This document shows positions 760 through 7,550 of a stretch of 8,486 nucleotides of DNA, piece by piece. This DNA is from a bacterium. Its GTDB lineage: Bacteria > JAMOTN01. A program made the position numbers and the translations under genes. Under the pieces are notes generated by a model, which saw nothing but the letters and a program-made list of their open reading frames with translations, did not search any database and had not been told where the DNA came from. The stretch spans positions 1 to 8,486 of the forward strand of contig JAMOTN010000031.1 of NCBI GenBank assembly GCA_027062325.1, in the 5' to 3' direction. How positions within the stretch are numbered: position 1 is the stretch's first letter; the number at the start of each line of letters is the position of its first letter.

Positions 760-1263
760 GTGTTGGAAAACTTTGTTCACAATTTGATCTATTCAACTTA
801 TAAGTTTATAGACAGTTGGGGATTATGGGCGTTGTTTTTATTTTCAATAACAGAAAGTATTGTGAATCCTGTGCCGCCCGATGTTTTCTTACCATTTGCT
901 GCCTCTAAGTTTGGAGTTTTGAAAGTTACTTTTGCTGCTTTAGCTGGAAATTTGATTGGTGCCATCATATCTTATGTAGCTTTTTATTACTTTAAAGATC
1001 ACTTTTCCAGTATGTTGCTTAGAAACAAATATTATTTAAGAGCAAGGCAACTTTTGGAAAAGTGGGAAGTAACAGCTGTTATTGTGGCTGCTTTGACACC
1101 CATTCCTTACAAGTTGATGTGTTGGAGCGCTGGTTTTTTGGAATTGAACTTTGTAAAATTTATAGTTGCTTCAATTTTAGCAAGGGGATTGAGATTTTTT
1201 GTGGTTGCCTCTGTTGGGAGATGGAGTTTGGAAGCTTTTATGACTATTTTGAAGGAGGGATAG
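760..1263 (+). CDS. DedA/YqaA-type (VTT domain) inner-membrane protein
   Basis: A small polytopic membrane protein of 167 residues from GTG 760 (175 if TTG 736 is used). It matches the SNARE-associated/VTT (DedA) superfamily. A first hydrophobic stretch (about 22-50) carries the E-S-x-x-N-P-x-P-P-D element (32-41) typical of the re-entrant loop, and helices follow at about 56-77, 104-128 and 132-152. ALTPIPYK at 111-118 and the following ARGLRFF at 141-147 are characteristic of the YqaA branch, which has T-P-I-P-Y-K where classic DedA proteins have F-x-R-x-x-P. DedA relatives are implicated in lipid-carrier (undecaprenyl phosphate or phospholipid) flipping and proton-motive-force homeostasis; the substrate of the YqaA branch is not known to me. 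It lies between rsuA and rsmD and contains the rsmD ribosome site at its 3' end. Confidence 0.8.
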   Translation: MLENFVHNLIYSTYKFIDSWGLWALFLFSITESIVNPVPPDVFLPFAASKFGVLKVTFAALAGNLIGAIISYVAFYYFKDHFSSMLLRNKYYLRARQLLEKWEVTAVIVAALTPIPYKLMCWSAGFLELNFVKFIVASILARGLRFFVVASVGRWSLEAFMTILKEG

Positions 1264-1266
1264 AAT

Positions 1267-1815
1267 GTGCCGCTTAGAGTTACTGCGGGGCTTTTTAGAG
1301 GGAGAAAATTGGAAGAGTTCAAGGGAAGGGATATAAGGCCTGTTACAGCTGTGGTAAGAGAGGCATTTTTCAACATTGTTGATGTTTTTGGATTAACTTT
1401 TCTAGATTTGTTTGCGGGAACGGGAGTGATGGGAATAGAAGCATTGAGCAGAGGGGCAGAGTTTGTAGTTTTTGTGGATGCAAATCTTGATGCTGTAAAG
1501 CTTATAAAAAGCAATTTAAATCGCTGTAAAGTAAGCGAAGATAAGTACACCATATTGAAGATGAGTGTTTCAGATTTTTTGGCTTCACCGGTAAGAAAAA
1601 AATATGATGTTGTATTTTTTGATCCTCCTTTTCCTGTTGGAATGTGGTATTCTGAATTGGCTTCTTGTGCGAGGGTTGTTAACAATGATGGAATTGTAGT
1701 GGTTAAGAATCATAAGACCGAGTATTTGCCTGATAAGTTAGGGCTTTTGGAAAAAGTTGATGCTCGAAAGTATGGAAGTAGTGGTTTGACATTTTATAGA
1801 TTGATTGGACAATAA
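1267..1815 (+). CDS. rsmD: 16S rRNA (guanine-N2)-methyltransferase RsmD
   Basis: A SAM-dependent methyltransferase of 182 residues, expected to make m2G966 in 16S rRNA. The N-terminal segment carries the family's AGxxRGRKL (7-15) and the RPVTAVVREAFFNI element (24-37). The SAM-binding loop is DLFAGTG (47-53), followed by GIEALSRGA (56-64), and the catalytic motif is DPPF at 119-122, as expected for base-amino methylation. Length matches family norms. GTG at 1267 follows AAGGAGGG (1252-1259) by 7 bases, and that site sits inside the preceding gene, giving a 3-base gap that suggests coupled translation. An ATG at 1265 is in another frame and stops quickly. It is followed by coaD, a common gene pair in bacteria, which strengthens both calls. 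Confidence 0.93.
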   Translation: MPLRVTAGLFRGRKLEEFKGRDIRPVTAVVREAFFNIVDVFGLTFLDLFAGTGVMGIEALSRGAEFVVFVDANLDAVKLIKSNLNRCKVSEDKYTILKMSVSDFLASPVRKKYDVVFFDPPFPVGMWYSELASCARVVNNDGIVVVKNHKTEYLPDKLGLLEKVDARKYGSSGLTFYRLIGQ

Positions 1816-1858
1816 ATAAAGATAGCTGTTTTGGAGAGAATATGTGGGGGTGAGTTCA

Positions 1859-2350
1859 GTGCCGACGGTTGTATATCCAGGAAGTTTTGATCCAGTCACA
1901 CTGGGGCACCTTGACATAATGAAACGCGCGGTGAAGATATTTGGCACTCTTGTGGTTTTAATAGCTAATAATCCATCTAAGAAATATACTTTCTCTGCTG
2001 AAGAAAGGGAAAAATTTATAATTAAAGCTTTAGAGGAAGAGGGGATGAGCAATATTGTTAAGGTTGAAGTTTTTAACGGCCTACTGGTTGATTATGTGAG
2101 AAAATTTGGAGATGTGGTTATTATAAGAGGTTTAAGAGCTGTGACAGACTTTGAATATGAGTTTCAGATGTTGCTTGCTAATAGAACACTTTGTAAAGAA
2201 TTCGAGTTGATATTTCTACCAGCCAGTAATCGTTATCTTTACCTTAGCTCTTCTATTGTTAAGGAGATAGCAAGGTTTGGTGGTGACATAAGTAGGTGTG
2301 TACCTGCTTCTATAATAGATTTTGTTATGGAGAAATTGAGAATTAATTAG
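1859..2350 (+). CDS. coaD: Phosphopantetheine adenylyltransferase
   Basis: Transfers AMP from ATP to 4'-phosphopantetheine, giving dephospho-CoA, the penultimate step of coenzyme A synthesis, in the cytoplasm. The 163-residue protein opens with YPGSFDPVTLGH (6-17), the nucleotidyltransferase T-x-G-H motif with His17. It keeps IIRGLRAVTDFEYE (88-101) and the C-terminal SSSIVKEIARFGGD (130-143) that contacts ATP. GTG at 1859 is chosen because it puts the start at the usual distance from YPGSFDP and has GGGGGTGA (1846-1853) five bases upstream. GTG at 1844, giving five extra residues, also has a usable site (GGAGAG, 1833-1838) and cannot be excluded. The 43-base gap after rsmD contains no terminator. 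Confidence 0.95.
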   Translation: MPTVVYPGSFDPVTLGHLDIMKRAVKIFGTLVVLIANNPSKKYTFSAEEREKFIIKALEEEGMSNIVKVEVFNGLLVDYVRKFGDVVIIRGLRAVTDFEYEFQMLLANRTLCKEFELIFLPASNRYLYLSSSIVKEIARFGGDISRCVPASIIDFVMEKLRIN

Positions 2351-2357
2351 TATGATG

Positions 2358-2363
2358 AAGGTG
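2358..2363 (+). promoter_or_regulatory. Ribosome binding site deciding the start of the apbE fusion gene
   Basis: AAGGTG lies six bases before ATG 2370. The in-frame ATGs at 2352 and 2355 have no well-placed ribosome site, although 2352 sits one base after the coaD stop and could be used by translational coupling. Confidence 0.5.
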
Positions 2364-2369
2364 CTGCTT

Positions 2370-3740
2370 ATGGGCACTAGATTGAGTAATTTTATTTTGC
2401 TTTTTTGCTTTTTTATTTCAACTTATGTTTTTGCTCAAAGCTTAAAATATCGGGAAAGTTTTGTATTGTGGGATACTTTTATAAAAGTTGGAGCTAGTTT
2501 TAAGCCAGCTTTTGATGTTGAAAGTTTTTTGAAAAAATGGGAAAATGAGTTTTCCCCGGAAAAATTTAAAGCTCTTGCAGCTACAAAAGAGATATTGCTT
2601 AGTACTTCTGAAGCTAGAGTTTTCAAAGAGGCTGGAGGCTTTGTTGATTTAACAAACGGCTACTTCGATCCGACGGTTGGAGTGCTGTCTCAACTTTGGG
2701 GATTTTGGAGTGGTAATTACAGAGTTCCTAGTGCTCATGAGATAAAAAAGGCTTTGAGTTTTGTTGGATGGCGTAAATTGGTAAAGATTGAGAGAGTATC
2801 GTCAGGTTTATGGAAGGTTGTCAAGAAGAGAGGGGTGATTTTTGATTTTGGTGGAATAGCAAAAGGTGCTGGGATTGATATGCTAGTTGATAAGTTGAAA
2901 GAAGATATGCGTTCCTATGATGTGTTTTTTGTTGATGCTGGTGGGGATGTGGTAATTTGTGGAAAAAAATTGTGGCGGGTGGGAATAAAGAATCCCCGAG
3001 GAAAAGGTATTGCAGGAGTTTTGGAGTTTGACTTGAGTGAAAAGGAGTGTGTAGCAATTGCAACGAGTGGGGACTATGAGCGTTATTTTGAAAAAGATGG
3101 TAAGCGATACTGTCACATATTTGATCCTCGAACGGGATATCCTGTGATAGGACCTGAGAGTGTAACAGTTATAGCTAAAAATCTAACAAAAGCAGATGCT
3201 TTAGCAACGGCTTTTTTTGCAATGGCTAGCTGGGAAGTTGTAAAGAGAGTAGCTGATAAACTTAAAGTAGGAGTGGTGTGGATAGGAAGTGATGGTAAGA
3301 TGATTGAAAATAATTTTGCAAAACCCTACTTGAAAGGAGTAAAGTTTTACACCTCTAAAGATTGGATATTGATAGTTATATTGGCAGTATTTTTATCGGT
3401 GGTGTTATTTTTATCTTGGAAAGCTGGAAAGTTTGGTGGCGTTGGGAAGATGAAGCCTTCTAGAGCGGTGATTTTGACGCCTTATGGAAAAAAGGTATTT
3501 GAACTTCCTCGAGAGGGGAAAGTTGTAATTAAAGGTAAGTTAGGTGATGTTAAGCTCAAATTTGATGGTTATAGGGTTAGGGTTATAAGTAGTAGTTGCC
3601 CGGATAAAATATGTATGAAACACGGTTGGCTTGAAGATGTTTTTCCGCGTGATTCTATAATATGTGTTCCTAATGAAGTGGAGATTAGATTGGAAGGTGT
3701 AGGCAAGGATATAAATGATGTTGATTTAGTGGTTAGATAA
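2370..3740 (+). CDS. Exported FAD:protein FMN transferase (ApbE) fused to a membrane-anchored NusG domain II
   Basis: A two-part protein of 456 residues from ATG 2370 (462 from 2352). Residues 1-22 form a Sec signal peptide ending V-F-A before Gln-Ser, with no lipobox Cys. Residues 23 to about 325 are an ApbE domain, which moves FMN from FAD onto Thr/Ser of extracytosolic flavoproteins. Visible motifs are FDPTVG (99-104), LWGFW (109-113), FDFGGIAKG (158-166), VDAGGDV (188-194), TSGDYERY (232-239), HIFDPRTG (249-256) and KADALATA (274-281), the last holding the expected metal-binding Asp and Thr. The usual S-x-Y-x(4)-S-E-x-x-x-L-N element is degenerate. A transmembrane helix follows (332-350). 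A NusG domain II (about 366-443) then carries CPDKIC (410-415), the Gly of HGW and the later IICVPNE (430-436). ApbE and NusG-II proteins are usually separate. The next gene, of Gx-transporter type, supports a shared role in extracytosolic flavin or electron transfer. Confidence 0.88.
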   Translation: MGTRLSNFILLFCFFISTYVFAQSLKYRESFVLWDTFIKVGASFKPAFDVESFLKKWENEFSPEKFKALAATKEILLSTSEARVFKEAGGFVDLTNGYFDPTVGVLSQLWGFWSGNYRVPSAHEIKKALSFVGWRKLVKIERVSSGLWKVVKKRGVIFDFGGIAKGAGIDMLVDKLKEDMRSYDVFFVDAGGDVVICGKKLWRVGIKNPRGKGIAGVLEFDLSEKECVAIATSGDYERYFEKDGKRYCHIFDPRTGYPVIGPESVTVIAKNLTKADALATAFFAMASWEVVKRVADKLKVGVVWIGSDGKMIENNFAKPYLKGVKFYTSKDWILIVILAVFLSVVLFLSWKAGKFGGVGKMKPSRAVILTPYGKKVFELPREGKVVIKGKLGDVKLKFDGYRVRVISSSCPDKICMKHGWLEDVFPRDSIICVPNEVEIRLEGVGKDINDVDLVVR

Positions 3741-3743
3741 TTT

Positions 3744-3749
3744 GGAGGA
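3744..3749 (+). promoter_or_regulatory. Ribosome binding site deciding the start of the Gx-transporter gene
   Basis: GGAGGA is only one base from the in-frame TTG at 3750, too close to serve it, but nine bases from TTG 3759. The downstream TTG is therefore the better start. Confidence 0.5.
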
Positions 3750-3758
3750 TTGCAAGAT

Positions 3759-4205
3759 TTGGATTTTAAGTGGAAGCGATTAAGTTTTGCAGCGATTGTT
3801 TTGATGTTGTTGGTTATTTTAGATAGATTTACTTCATTCTATATGCTGAGATTTGGTTTATCAAATCTTGTGATTTACTTGTATTACGATGTGTTTTGGC
3901 AACTTGTTTTATTCAAAGCACTGGTGGTTTTTATTTTTAAAGGGCCTTTTGTCTCATTTGTTTCTTTTCTTGCTACTTCTATTTCTGCTTTTGTAGTTGT
4001 CAAATTGTTGCAGGCAGGTTATGGTTCAGTTGTGAGTTGCGTTACAGGTAGTGTTTTGCATACATATGTTCAAATATTAGTTTTTCAAATTTTTTTGTTC
4101 AAGTTAGGGTTTTATATTGAACTTTTAGCGTTTGGAATGTCAATTTTGACAGGGATATTGACTGGTTTAATATTGCCTAGGCTGGAGTTGTATTTACAAA
4201 GATGA
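3759..4205 (+). CDS. Gx transporter family (heptaprenyl diphosphate synthase component I-like, PF07456 type) membrane protein
   Basis: A very hydrophobic protein of 148 residues from TTG 3759 (151 from TTG 3750). The family signature FGLSNLV (32-38) corresponds to the usual L-G-L-x-N-I. LFKALVVFIFKG (51-62), a Ser/Ala-rich helix (69-80), GSVLHTYVQ (97-105, matching the family's G-A-x-x-H-N-x-x-Q) and SILTGILTGLILP (128-140) all follow in the expected order. About five membrane helices are likely. The old name, heptaprenyl diphosphate synthase component I, is misleading for most members, which look like ECF-type substrate-binding membrane proteins. In many genomes such a gene sits beside NusG-II and ApbE genes, and here the NusG-II partner is fused to ApbE just upstream. 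The transported or bound molecule is unknown; an isoprenoid, quinone or flavin link is inference. The last helix is followed by Arg/Gln-ended residues and the stop at 4203-4205. Confidence 0.75.
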   Translation: MDFKWKRLSFAAIVLMLLVILDRFTSFYMLRFGLSNLVIYLYYDVFWQLVLFKALVVFIFKGPFVSFVSFLATSISAFVVVKLLQAGYGSVVSCVTGSVLHTYVQILVFQIFLFKLGFYIELLAFGMSILTGILTGLILPRLELYLQR

Positions 4206-4273
4206 TTGGAGTGGAACGTGGAGCAGTTTTTTTAAGAGAGGTTATAATAAAACTTGGAGTTTTTATATGTTTT

Positions 4274-4279
4274 GGGGGT
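4274..4279 (+). promoter_or_regulatory. Ribosome binding site favouring ATG 4286 for the giant exported protein
   Basis: GGGGGT (one mismatch to GGAGGT) lies six bases before ATG 4286, whose product begins with a standard signal peptide. The upstream in-frame ATG 4202, overlapping the previous stop as ATGA, lacks a clear site and would add 28 residues in front of the signal. Confidence 0.5.
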
Positions 4280-4285
4280 ATTTTT

Positions 4286-7200
4286 ATGAAAAGTGTACTT
4301 CTGAGAGTCATGGCGTTGACTTTTACGATTTTTGTTATTTTTAGTTTTTCCGAAAGTTTGGATGAACTTTATAAGAGATATACCTATTTAGTTAACAAGG
4401 CTTCAGAGGCTGTGGGTGAAGAAAAAGCAGAATTGGATGAGCAAATACAGGAAGTTTTGAAGAAGATAAATGGCGTCACTCGTGGAGTAAGTAGAGTGGC
4501 TACTGAAAGTGTAAGAATACAGCAAAAAGTTTCGAAGTATGGCAAGGTTGGTAAGAAAGTTGGGGAATTTTTAGGGCAAGTTAGTGTTTTTGCAGGAAAT
4601 CTTACCAATATTTTGAATAATGTTCAAAATGTTATAAGTCAGGCAACTTTGGAAGTTGAAGATGCAATTGCATCTGTTGACGTTTCAAGTTTTGGAGATG
4701 TGAAAAATTTAGCGAATTTGATACTTCAAAGTAAGTTGTCAGAGGATATTATTGGGAAAATAGTTGATCAGCTATCCAGTCCAAGAGGGAAAGAAATCCT
4801 TGCTAAATTACCCCCCTCCCTAAAGAAAAGAATAGAAAAGAGTTTGAAAAAGGAGATAAGAGAAAACTATACTTCTTACATTGGAATAGAAAGACCTTCT
4901 TTTTTCAAAAAACTTTACCTTAAAGTGAAAGAAAAATTGGGCAAGCTTACGAATGAAGATAAGTTAATCTTGGCCAAAGAAGCATTTGATAAAGGTGAAT
5001 TAGACAAAGCTATGAAATATTTGAATGAACTAGAAAAGGCAGGTTACGATGCTCCTCAGCTTTACTATTTGAAAGCCTTGATATATGAAAAGCAAGGGAG
5101 AACGGAAGATTCCATTATATACTTAGCCAAGTTTATAAAGTATGCAATTACTAAAAAGAGTGCAATGGTTGCGGCAGCTATTAAAGATGAGAGTTTGTTT
5201 GATAAGTTGATGGAGAAGCTGTTTGCGTATAAATCCAAGTATGATAAGTACATAAAAGATCCTAAGTTGTTTAAGGTAGCTGTTCAGCGTTTCTTAAAGT
5301 CGGGAGATAAGAAGAGTTTTAGAAGATTAATAGCTCATTTAGGTAATAAGAATGATATAAGAAAGACGTGGAAATATATTGCTCAAATGTACAACGATTT
5401 TAAAGCTCAGGTGCGTTCCAACCAAGTTCCACCTCAGCTGAAGGAAGAAGTAAATTGGGCAATAAACAATTTGAGAGTACTAAAATACAGGGTTGAGAAG
5501 GCAGTTTTCTATACAGAGGAAAATGTTACAAAGGATCGCTATGTTGTATTTGTATTGTTTGATGGTTTGAGCTGGCCTCTTTTAAAACGTTTAATGAGGG
5601 AAGGAAGGTTGCCGTTCCTAGCGAAATTAGTGAGAAATGGAATGTATTCTGATAACTGTTTGACAGTGGTTCCTTCCATGACAGGGCCGGGACATATTGC
5701 ATTTTACATGGGGGTATTTAACGATAGAATGGGAATACCGAATTTGCGCTACTTTGACAGAACTTCGAAATCTTTGAGAAACTACATTGGATTGGATATG
5801 ACTACTAGCAATGTAGATGCTTACAGATATGTGCCAACAATATTTAGGCAGCTTGGTTATCAGGCAGGAGTAGTAGGTGAGATGTTTGCGCCGGGGGTTA
5901 AAGTATTCAGGAATATTCCAAAGGTGGAGTTTATTTTGGCAGCTGCTCACACATACAAGGCTTTCTTGATAATGGATAAGGTTAGTTTGAATGTGTTTAA
6001 AAATTTGGTAAAGGTTGGGGTGGCATTTCATAATTTACCCCACTTTATAGTGCTTTACTTGCCGGGAATTGATGAGACTAGCCATAATTATGGATGGGGA
6101 AGTAAGGAATGTATAGATCACTATACGAATATAATAGAGCTAACTGCGAAAACAATTTATGATTTGTTTAATGAATCCGGGTTATGGGATAAGACCATAG
6201 TTATTTTCTCTGGTGATCATGGACAGCAGAGGAGTAAGGAAGAGTTACCAGCTCATAAGTTTTTTGAAAAGTTTGGTTTAAAAGGTTTGAACCCGAGCCT
6301 TACAGATGATTTAAAGGTTAAGTTCATGCTTGATAAGTATGATGTGGTTCAACTACCTACTGGAAATGCATGTATGAATTACTACTTCAAAGATCCGGTG
6401 ACTGGAAAATGGGACAGCATAGTTATGGGTAAGCAGTTGAGAAATTACCCCACTCCTAAAGGAAATACTGATTTGGTAAAAGCGGTAGTTGATGCTTATA
6501 AAGATGCGATAGTGTGTGCAGTTTACAAGATATCACCTGTTAAGTTCGGGGTTGTTTCGTATAAAGGTGAGGCTGTTATAAAGGTGAGATGGGCGTTTGG
6601 TAAGACCTTAATCAAATACGAGCCGATTACTGCTAATGTTTTGGAAATACCAAGTGAGTACTGTGGACGTTGGATGACAGATGATAGCTGGTTAAAGGCT
6701 TCTTTGAGATTGAAATGGCCGGGAGCTGTTGAAGGAATTGCTCATTACATGATGAATGCATATTCGCCTGATTTGGTACTATTTGCCAACTACCGTTCTT
6801 TTGGTTGGCAGCATTACAAAGGAAATCACGGATCTGTTGATCCTGAGAGTATGAGGGTTCCAATGCTAATATTCGGTGGGGCTCCAGAAGTGAAGCGTGG
6901 TGTAAAGATAAAGTATTGTCGCACAATTGATGTCTATCCTACAGTTTGCAAATTGCTAGGTGTAACAGTGCCTTCTGGTATTGATGGAAGGGATATATTT
7001 AAGCGTCCGCTTGAAAAGGCAACGGATTTCTTTGCTACTCAAGAAGCGTCAGTAGGTGATGGGTTAGAGGCGACGGTGGTTCGTGTGGTAGATGGTGATA
7101 CCCTCATAGTTAGATTGGCTAATGGGAAGGAGGAAAGAGTGCGACTTTTGGGGGTTGATACACCTGAAAAGACTCAACCTATGGGCCAACTTGCAAAAAA

Positions 7201-7489
7201 ATTTACAGAGGATATGGTATTGGGCAGAAGAGTTGTTTTGGAGTTTGAAAAGAATAAAAGGGGGCGTTATGGTAGGCTTTTGGCTTATGTTTGGATAGAT
7301 GGGGTGCTTTTGAATGAAGAGTTATTGCGTGCTGGTATGGCTTATCTTTACGTGTTTACTAGAAAGATGAAGTATTACAGTCGTCTTGTTGAGGCTCAAA
7401 AGTTTGCAAAAGAAAATAAGCTTGGTGTATGGGGAGGAGATTACGAGAAACCTTGGGAGTATAGGAAGAGAATTAGAGGGGCAAGGTAG
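4286..7489 (+). CDS. Exported TPR / alkaline-phosphatase-superfamily phosphodiesterase / thermonuclease fusion protein
   Basis: A 1067-residue multidomain protein from ATG 4286 (1095 from ATG 4202). Residues 1-22 are a signal peptide with no lipobox. Residues 24-200 are helix-rich, with a likely coiled coil at about 24-62. Two TPR-like repeats follow (about 223-290), then a helical linker. Residues about 416-905 form a type I phosphodiesterase/nucleotide pyrophosphatase domain with the full active-site set: Asp426 (LFDGLSW), nucleophile Thr466 (PSMTGPGH), Asp596 and His600 (GIDETSH), Asp644 and His645 (SGDHG) and His848 (NHGSVD). Residues about 926-1052 form a staphylococcal-nuclease domain: VVDGDT (934-939), Arg953 and Asp958-Thr959-Pro960-Glu961 (RLLGVDTPE), and Arg997 (YGRLLAY), matching Asp21, Arg35, Asp40-Thr41, Glu43 and Arg87 of S. 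aureus nuclease. Both enzymes look active. There is no C-terminal anchor. Extracellular or periplasmic breakdown of nucleic acids and nucleotides is the simplest role; the substrate is unproven. Confidence 0.9.
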   Translation: MKSVLLRVMALTFTIFVIFSFSESLDELYKRYTYLVNKASEAVGEEKAELDEQIQEVLKKINGVTRGVSRVATESVRIQQKVSKYGKVGKKVGEFLGQVSVFAGNLTNILNNVQNVISQATLEVEDAIASVDVSSFGDVKNLANLILQSKLSEDIIGKIVDQLSSPRGKEILAKLPPSLKKRIEKSLKKEIRENYTSYIGIERPSFFKKLYLKVKEKLGKLTNEDKLILAKEAFDKGELDKAMKYLNELEKAGYDAPQLYYLKALIYEKQGRTEDSIIYLAKFIKYAITKKSAMVAAAIKDESLFDKLMEKLFAYKSKYDKYIKDPKLFKVAVQRFLKSGDKKSFRRLIAHLGNKNDIRKTWKYIAQMYNDFKAQVRSNQVPPQLKEEVNWAINNLRVLKYRVEKAVFYTEENVTKDRYVVFVLFDGLSWPLLKRLMREGRLPFLAKLVRNGMYSDNCLTVVPSMTGPGHIAFYMGVFNDRMGIPNLRYFDRTSKSLRNYIGLDMTTSNVDAYRYVPTIFRQLGYQAGVVGEMFAPGVKVFRNIPKVEFILAAAHTYKAFLIMDKVSLNVFKNLVKVGVAFHNLPHFIVLYLPGIDETSHNYGWGSKECIDHYTNIIELTAKTIYDLFNESGLWDKTIVIFSGDHGQQRSKEELPAHKFFEKFGLKGLNPSLTDDLKVKFMLDKYDVVQLPTGNACMNYYFKDPVTGKWDSIVMGKQLRNYPTPKGNTDLVKAVVDAYKDAIVCAVYKISPVKFGVVSYKGEAVIKVRWAFGKTLIKYEPITANVLEIPSEYCGRWMTDDSWLKASLRLKWPGAVEGIAHYMMNAYSPDLVLFANYRSFGWQHYKGNHGSVDPESMRVPMLIFGGAPEVKRGVKIKYCRTIDVYPTVCKLLGVTVPSGIDGRDIFKRPLEKATDFFATQEASVGDGLEATVVRVVDGDTLIVRLANGKEERVRLLGVDTPEKTQPMGQLAKKFTEDMVLGRRVVLEFEKNKRGRYGRLLAYVWIDGVLLNEELLRAGMAYLYVFTRKMKYYSRLVEAQKFAKENKLGVWGGDYEKPWEYRKRIRGAR

Positions 7490-7524
7490 TTTTTAAATTA
7501 GTTATTTCAATAAGGTATTTAGTA

Positions 7525-7550
7525 GGGGGCTTTTAAGCCCCCTTTTGTTT
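7525..7550 (+). terminator. Rho-independent terminator
   Basis: A perfect GC-rich stem pairs GGGGGCT (7525-7531) with AGCCCCC (7536-7542) around a four-base loop and is followed by TTTTGTTTT. It lies 35 bases after the stop of the phosphodiesterase-nuclease gene and should end the transcript of the whole preceding gene group. It is the only strong intrinsic terminator I see in the window. Confidence 0.93.

Follow-up and report, generated by a model that had tools for sequence, protein, structure and literature searches.

The locus and its reading frame

The window, which is the whole stretch of DNA analyzed in this study, is a complete contig of 8486 bp. It belongs to a draft genome of 1.65 Mb (84% complete, 81 contigs, contamination 0.21%), which is the single representative of its phylum in the collection searched, with no phylum-mates for comparison. 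The host is probably a thermophile, as the GC content of the 16S rRNA is 62% versus 38% for the window.

A tightly packed run of genes on the same strand includes those for a pseudouridine synthase, a DedA/VTT protein, rsmD, coaD, an ApbE-NusG_II protein and an Hpre_diP_synt_I-like protein. The last gene of the run encodes the fusion protein described below, and an intrinsic terminator follows it. The relevant features are:

4274..4278, plus strand: Shine-Dalgarno-like GGGGG, located 7 nt before the start codon at 4286 (read from the sequence)
4286..7489, plus strand: whole fusion gene (open frame, Pfam, AF2)
4286..4357, plus strand: signal-peptide-like segment, aa 1-24, MKSVLLRVMALTFTIFVIFSFSES (hydrophobicity peak)
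4358..5530, plus strand: all-helical N-terminal region, aa 25-415 (AF2 helices)
4964..5143, plus strand: one or two TPR-like hairpins, aa 227-286 (TPR_16 and TPR_8 under cut-off; pLDDT about 90)
5534..6997, plus strand: AlkP-superfamily phosphoesterase of NPP fold, aa 417-904 (PF01663, Z 27-28, conserved columns)
6998..7060, plus strand: low-confidence linker, aa 905-925 (pLDDT under 50 at aa 903-923; alignment A1)
7061..7441, plus strand: staphylococcal-nuclease (SNase) domain, aa 926-1052 (PF00565, 3mhb and others, fold match)
7524..7543, plus strand: intrinsic terminator, 8-bp stem plus T tract, 3' of the fusion gene

The upstream ApbE-NusG_II gene (2352-3740) has its own peculiarity: it encodes a 462-aa protein in which a transmembrane segment connects an ApbE flavin transferase with a NusG_II domain. 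The gene for the Hpre_diP_synt_I-like membrane protein comes next, an arrangement that resembles flavin-based electron-transfer loci.

A preliminary description of this DNA had assigned all parts of the fusion to one uninterrupted frame, and 4286..7489 is indeed a single open frame of 1067 aa plus stop, intact throughout. Another ATG in the same frame lies at 4202, where it overlaps the upstream gene's stop; starting there would give 28 extra residues (4202-4285). Position 4286 appears to be the better start because it is preceded by the GGGGG run and because the signal-peptide-like segment begins directly at it.

Domains of the encoded protein

The hydrophobicity maximum of the protein is found at aa 3-22. 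The segment formed by aa 1-24 is predicted to be Sec signal-like or an anchor, and could be retained in the membrane; its signal-peptide-like character supports the export-type N-terminus proposed earlier. The helical region that follows (aa 25-415) had been described as a TPR region. Helical hairpins are predicted by AF2 at aa 225-290, and this part is a helical stretch holding one or two TPR-like hairpins. The TPR assignment itself is weak, however: none of the Pfam TPR models scored over its cut-off, the best being TPR_16 (27.5 vs 32.7 bits, aa 229-282). When the N-terminus was folded alone as a single sequence, the mean pLDDT was 64, which is low confidence. No relative of aa 25-415 was found among the open reading frames of the fetched loci.

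An AF2 run on an 82-row alignment (pTM = 0.57) folded both the phosphoesterase and the SNase domains confidently. The phosphoesterase matches PF01663 at aa 420-661 with an E value of 8.1e-24, far above the curated cut-off. The nearest solved folds for aa 415-904, obtained with Foldseek/VIA, are those of ENPP5, ENPP7, Xac NPP, ENPP4 and ENPP6, with Z scores of 27-28 and an rmsd of 2.8-3.0 over about 350 residues. All seven metal/nucleophile residues are present (D426, T466, D596, H600, D644, H645 and H848). Six of these positions are invariant in alignment A1, and T466 is nearly so; the call for H848 was made from A1, its column being misaligned in the larger alignment A3. The family match, the fold and the conserved columns thus bear out the earlier assignment to the AlkP superfamily, with all seven positions in place.

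The substrate pocket departs from that of known NPP enzymes. In the latter, an Asn located 21 residues past the nucleophile binds phosphate. A Phe next to the nucleophile lines their nucleotide pocket (F186 in svPDE; PMC10121219). Neither marker was present when the domain was aligned: the Phe column is occupied by G467, a Gly found in all 51 stand-alone relatives of A3, and the Asn column by L487, which is Ile or Leu in the relatives, with N486 lying one residue earlier. R488, beside L487, is an invariant Arg across the 51 stand-alone relatives. The Asn column of PafA type is not conserved in a profile alignment, and the PafA Lys/Arg pair could not be reliably aligned. Because of the substitutions in the Phe and Asn columns, the domain is read as one built on the AlkP plan without being a canonical NPP.

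The absence of these pocket residues also bears on a further possibility: that the domain is a pyrophosphatase of nucleotides, working for FAD or the AMP side of the exported ApbE flavinylation system encoded next to it, with the SNase being unrelated. Such a role is suggested by two genes directly upstream in the same run, one for the exported ApbE-NusG_II protein and one for a Gx-transporter-like protein. Unrelated housekeeping genes (pseudouridine synthase, rsmD, coaD) are part of that run too, however, and with the nucleotide-pocket residues missing as well we regard this role as very unlikely.

A linker of about 20 residues, starting at the point that marks the end of stand-alone relatives, separates the phosphoesterase from the SNase. 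The latter matches PF00565 at aa 951-1049 (E 1.5e-22, 80.5 bits vs a cut-off of 21), and the fold of the C-terminal domain agrees with staphylococcal nuclease with a TM score of 0.84-0.89 (Foldseek/VIA). The main catalytic residues are all present (D936, D938, R953, D958, T959, E961, Y995 and R997), and the catalytic D21, R35, D40, E43 and R87 of SNase correspond to D938, R953, D958, E961 and R997. A complete SNase domain, as previously announced, is therefore encoded. Known members of the family are Ca2+-dependent and leave products with 3'-phosphate and 5'-OH ends. The domain resembles the thermonuclease/SNase family in fold, catalytic residues and identity to its nearest members (about 35-48%), while the usual member of the family is a small, single-domain secreted protein.

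The nature of the SNase products is relevant to one possible division of labour, in which the AlkP domain would be an NPP-type phosphodiesterase/exonuclease that trims SNase oligonucleotides to 5'-mononucleotides. The NPP fold and the seven catalytic residues are compatible with this relay, and snake venom PDE, which has the same fold, does degrade nucleic acid. The chemistry is mismatched, however, since SNase yields 3'-phosphate ends and a venom-type exonuclease starts from 3'-OH. Given also G467 and L487 at the pocket positions, we consider a relay of this kind quite unlikely.

Relatives and the origin of the fusion

A chimera made during assembly or binning deserves consideration as the source of the fusion, as the genome is an isolated 81-contig draft and the phylum offers no second one in which to confirm the junction. 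Nevertheless, the frame is continuous across the junction, which lies well inside the contig. GC and GC3 are similar in the three regions of the gene and in the neighbouring genes, and no repeats were found at the junction between phosphoesterase and SNase. A search of the genome detected one SNase only and one phosphoesterase of this kind, both in the fusion chain. The other two AlkP-type hits are a 524-aa phosphoglycerate-mutase-like protein and a 412-aa phosphopentomutase-like protein (named from their sequences), both full-length and cytosolic. With a contamination as low as 0.21%, a chimera seems extremely improbable, and composition, repeats and frame show no sign of the error near 7020-7070 that the preliminary description had contemplated. 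Furthermore, the phosphoesterase ends in a ...GIDGRDIF motif, at the same point where stand-alone relatives end in alignment A1, and the SNase starts just after it. Hence, the SNase is an addition placed where the phosphoesterase naturally terminates.

A protein with this domain order had not been known to the preliminary description, and the searches agree. Two largely overlapping sets of genomes were queried, 386 with the phosphoesterase and 385 with the phosphoesterase-SNase part, scoring the top few candidates in each genome; one domain or the other was retrieved but never both in one frame. Peptide patterns yielded no relatives of the fusion in genome and viral contigs. In viral contigs a single-protein query found no SNase, and an alignment query gave matches; only the SNase was found in phages and plasmids. 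Literature searches of partial coverage found no SNase-AlkP or SNase-phosphodiesterase fusion.

Several candidates were examined and discarded. The phosphoesterase of G044 joins that of the window in the tree by a long-branch join, and its phosphoesterase and SNase lie on separate contigs. None of the long frames with SNase hits turned out to be an AlkP fusion: L227 joins ComEC and SNase, L228 joins SNase and a purple acid phosphatase, and L229 and L230 are peptidase-like or have no other named domains. No sign of a defence system was seen either, the only PADLOC hit being to a generic SNase plus lamin-tail model. L227 (G065, 1099-4383, minus strand) is a 1095-aa ComEC-like competence protein with an SNase insertion ahead of the channel part and a metallo-beta-lactamase domain behind it. 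In the genome of our host, the ComEC match is short, a frame of 299 aa.

In the GTDB collection, 238 loci with phosphoesterase relatives were found, and 80 were kept for analysis. In the latter, no SNase or N-terminal match was detected in the phosphoesterase frame, and no SNase gene was found within the fetched flanks. The stand-alone relatives, mostly of 470-510 aa and 21-29% identical to the AlkP domain of the window, occur in Dadabacteria, Gemmatimonadota, Zixibacteria, Bacteroidota, Bathyarchaeota and others. Most are devoid of a signal peptide; five (L023, L024, L051, L053 and L084) have signal or lipoprotein-like N-termini as judged by eye. Across the entire AlkP domain, the stand-alone PF01663 proteins are the best sequence relatives of the window protein; they share with it the insert that separates DHG from the last His, the conserved Arg (R488) and the Gly after the nucleophile, and differ in lacking both the SNase and the helical N-terminus.

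Next to the stand-alone relatives (L053-L132), MlaC is found in 13 of 80 loci, LPG_synthase_TM in 8 and GlnE in 22. The MlaC and LPG_synthase_TM neighbours are a hint of lipid substrates, and those of GlnE look like lineage synteny. Altogether, the relatives may constitute a widespread and uncharacterised AlkP subfamily, perhaps lipid-linked. For the window protein, this raises the possibility that the substrate of the AlkP domain is a phosphodiester of the envelope or one linked to a lipid, and that the SNase works separately from it (e.g., on envelope eDNA), the two sharing an exported scaffold with no substrate relay. ENPP6 and ENPP7 act on choline lipids, the former as a choline phosphodiesterase and the latter as a sphingomyelinase. 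Both are among the nearest folds, the base-stacking Phe of NPPs is replaced by Gly, and the MlaC-like and LPG_synthase_TM neighbours span several phyla. Against this proposal, the AlkP domain of the window is a long branch of about 25% identity whose placement in the tree is insecure, and neighbour evidence may not transfer to it; the GlnE case illustrates that neighbours can be lineage synteny; and the nucleotide-specific ENPP5 and NPP score equally in the fold comparison. We view a lipid or envelope substrate as somewhat unlikely, albeit with a real chance of being correct.

Possible functions of the two-enzyme chain

Our preferred reading, which we hold tentatively, is that the protein may be an exported, possibly membrane-anchored two-enzyme chain that degrades nucleic acid outside the cytoplasm, the AlkP domain serving as phosphatase for SNase products. 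The C-terminal SNase would cut DNA or RNA to pieces and nucleotides with 3'-phosphates; the two-metal AlkP domain would act on the released 3'-phosphates as a phosphatase or short-range phosphoesterase; and the end products would be phosphate and nucleosides. The helical N-terminus might space the enzymes from the membrane or bind a partner. The single frame, the export-type N-terminus, the two predicted folds and the two complete catalytic sets are shown by the analysis; activity, location, what the AlkP domain acts on and the sequence of steps are inferred.

Several observations are in line with a nuclease-phosphatase pair. Catalytic residues and folds are complete in both domains; the fusion is covalent, with the SNase appended where the phosphoesterase naturally ends; and the only SNase found in the genome shares its chain with the sole PF01663-type phosphoesterase that is not a mutase. 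In addition, DNA-degrading bacteria pair secreted nucleases with secreted nucleotidases, as does Shewanella with a 2',3'-cyclic phosphodiesterase/3'-nucleotidase (PMC8289736). A different exported protein, L228 (G100, 1347-3269, minus strand), has 641 aa and combines an SNase with a purple-acid-phosphatase-like metallophosphatase (PF00565 + PF16656 + PF00149). It resembles the window protein in having an SNase and a two-metal phosphoesterase in one exported chain, and differs in the reverse domain order and the unrelated phosphatase fold (PF00149); it is therefore a convergent, independent nuclease-phosphatase fusion. L228 and the published pairs of nuclease and nucleotidase favour a nuclease-phosphatase pair here as well.

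Other observations point the opposite way. An architecture without relatives gives no support for cooperation from co-evolution or recurrence, and with the Asn column of PafA type not conserved, known markers do not signal a monoesterase activity. Some stand-alone relatives lie near lipid-related genes, and none near nucleases. Moreover, the genome, which is 84% complete, yielded neither a PF12849 phosphate-binding protein nor a PF02608 (Bmp) nucleoside-binding one. The relay initially envisaged, in which the phosphodiesterase processes nuclease fragments, is not supported as formulated in view of the 3'-phosphate ends, G467 and L487, and the genomic context of the relatives; a relay based on dephosphorylation is plausible.

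The closest known plan is that of ENPP1-3 and snake venom PDE, in which a PDE domain is followed by a C-terminal nuclease-like domain (PMC6052110, PMC10121219). As is predicted for the window protein, an extracellular two-zinc PDE domain sharing this fold (Z about 26-28) precedes a domain of nuclease fold, and additional domains lie on its N-terminal side. In contrast, their nuclease-like domain is of unrelated fold and has a structural role, and the SNase of the window is predicted to be catalytically complete. No nuclease-like domain of ENPP type was detected in the window protein, whose C-terminal domain is an SNase by Pfam and fold, and which also lacks SMB domains and the Phe and Asn of the NPP pocket. 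The likeness to ENPP1-3 is thus one of plan only.

Each kind of enzyme is known, and what is new is the combination of two well-known enzyme folds, apparently undescribed. It is possible, if doubtful, that the protein is a one-chain extracellular enzyme for nucleic-acid mineralisation, in which a new AlkP subfamily with NPP fold and without NPP pocket removes the 3'-phosphate left by SNase, and that it arose independently of both the SNase-purple acid phosphatase fusion and the PDE-nuclease plan of ENPPs. The pairing occurs nowhere else in the genomes searched, and the host phylum is barely sampled. If the active sites cooperate, the protein would be a compact natural nuclease-phosphatase that scavenges phosphate and nucleosides; it would also parallel the ENPP1-3 plan, with an apparently active nuclease in the C-terminal place. 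The finding also points to a widespread AlkP subfamily, maybe tied to lipid-related genes.
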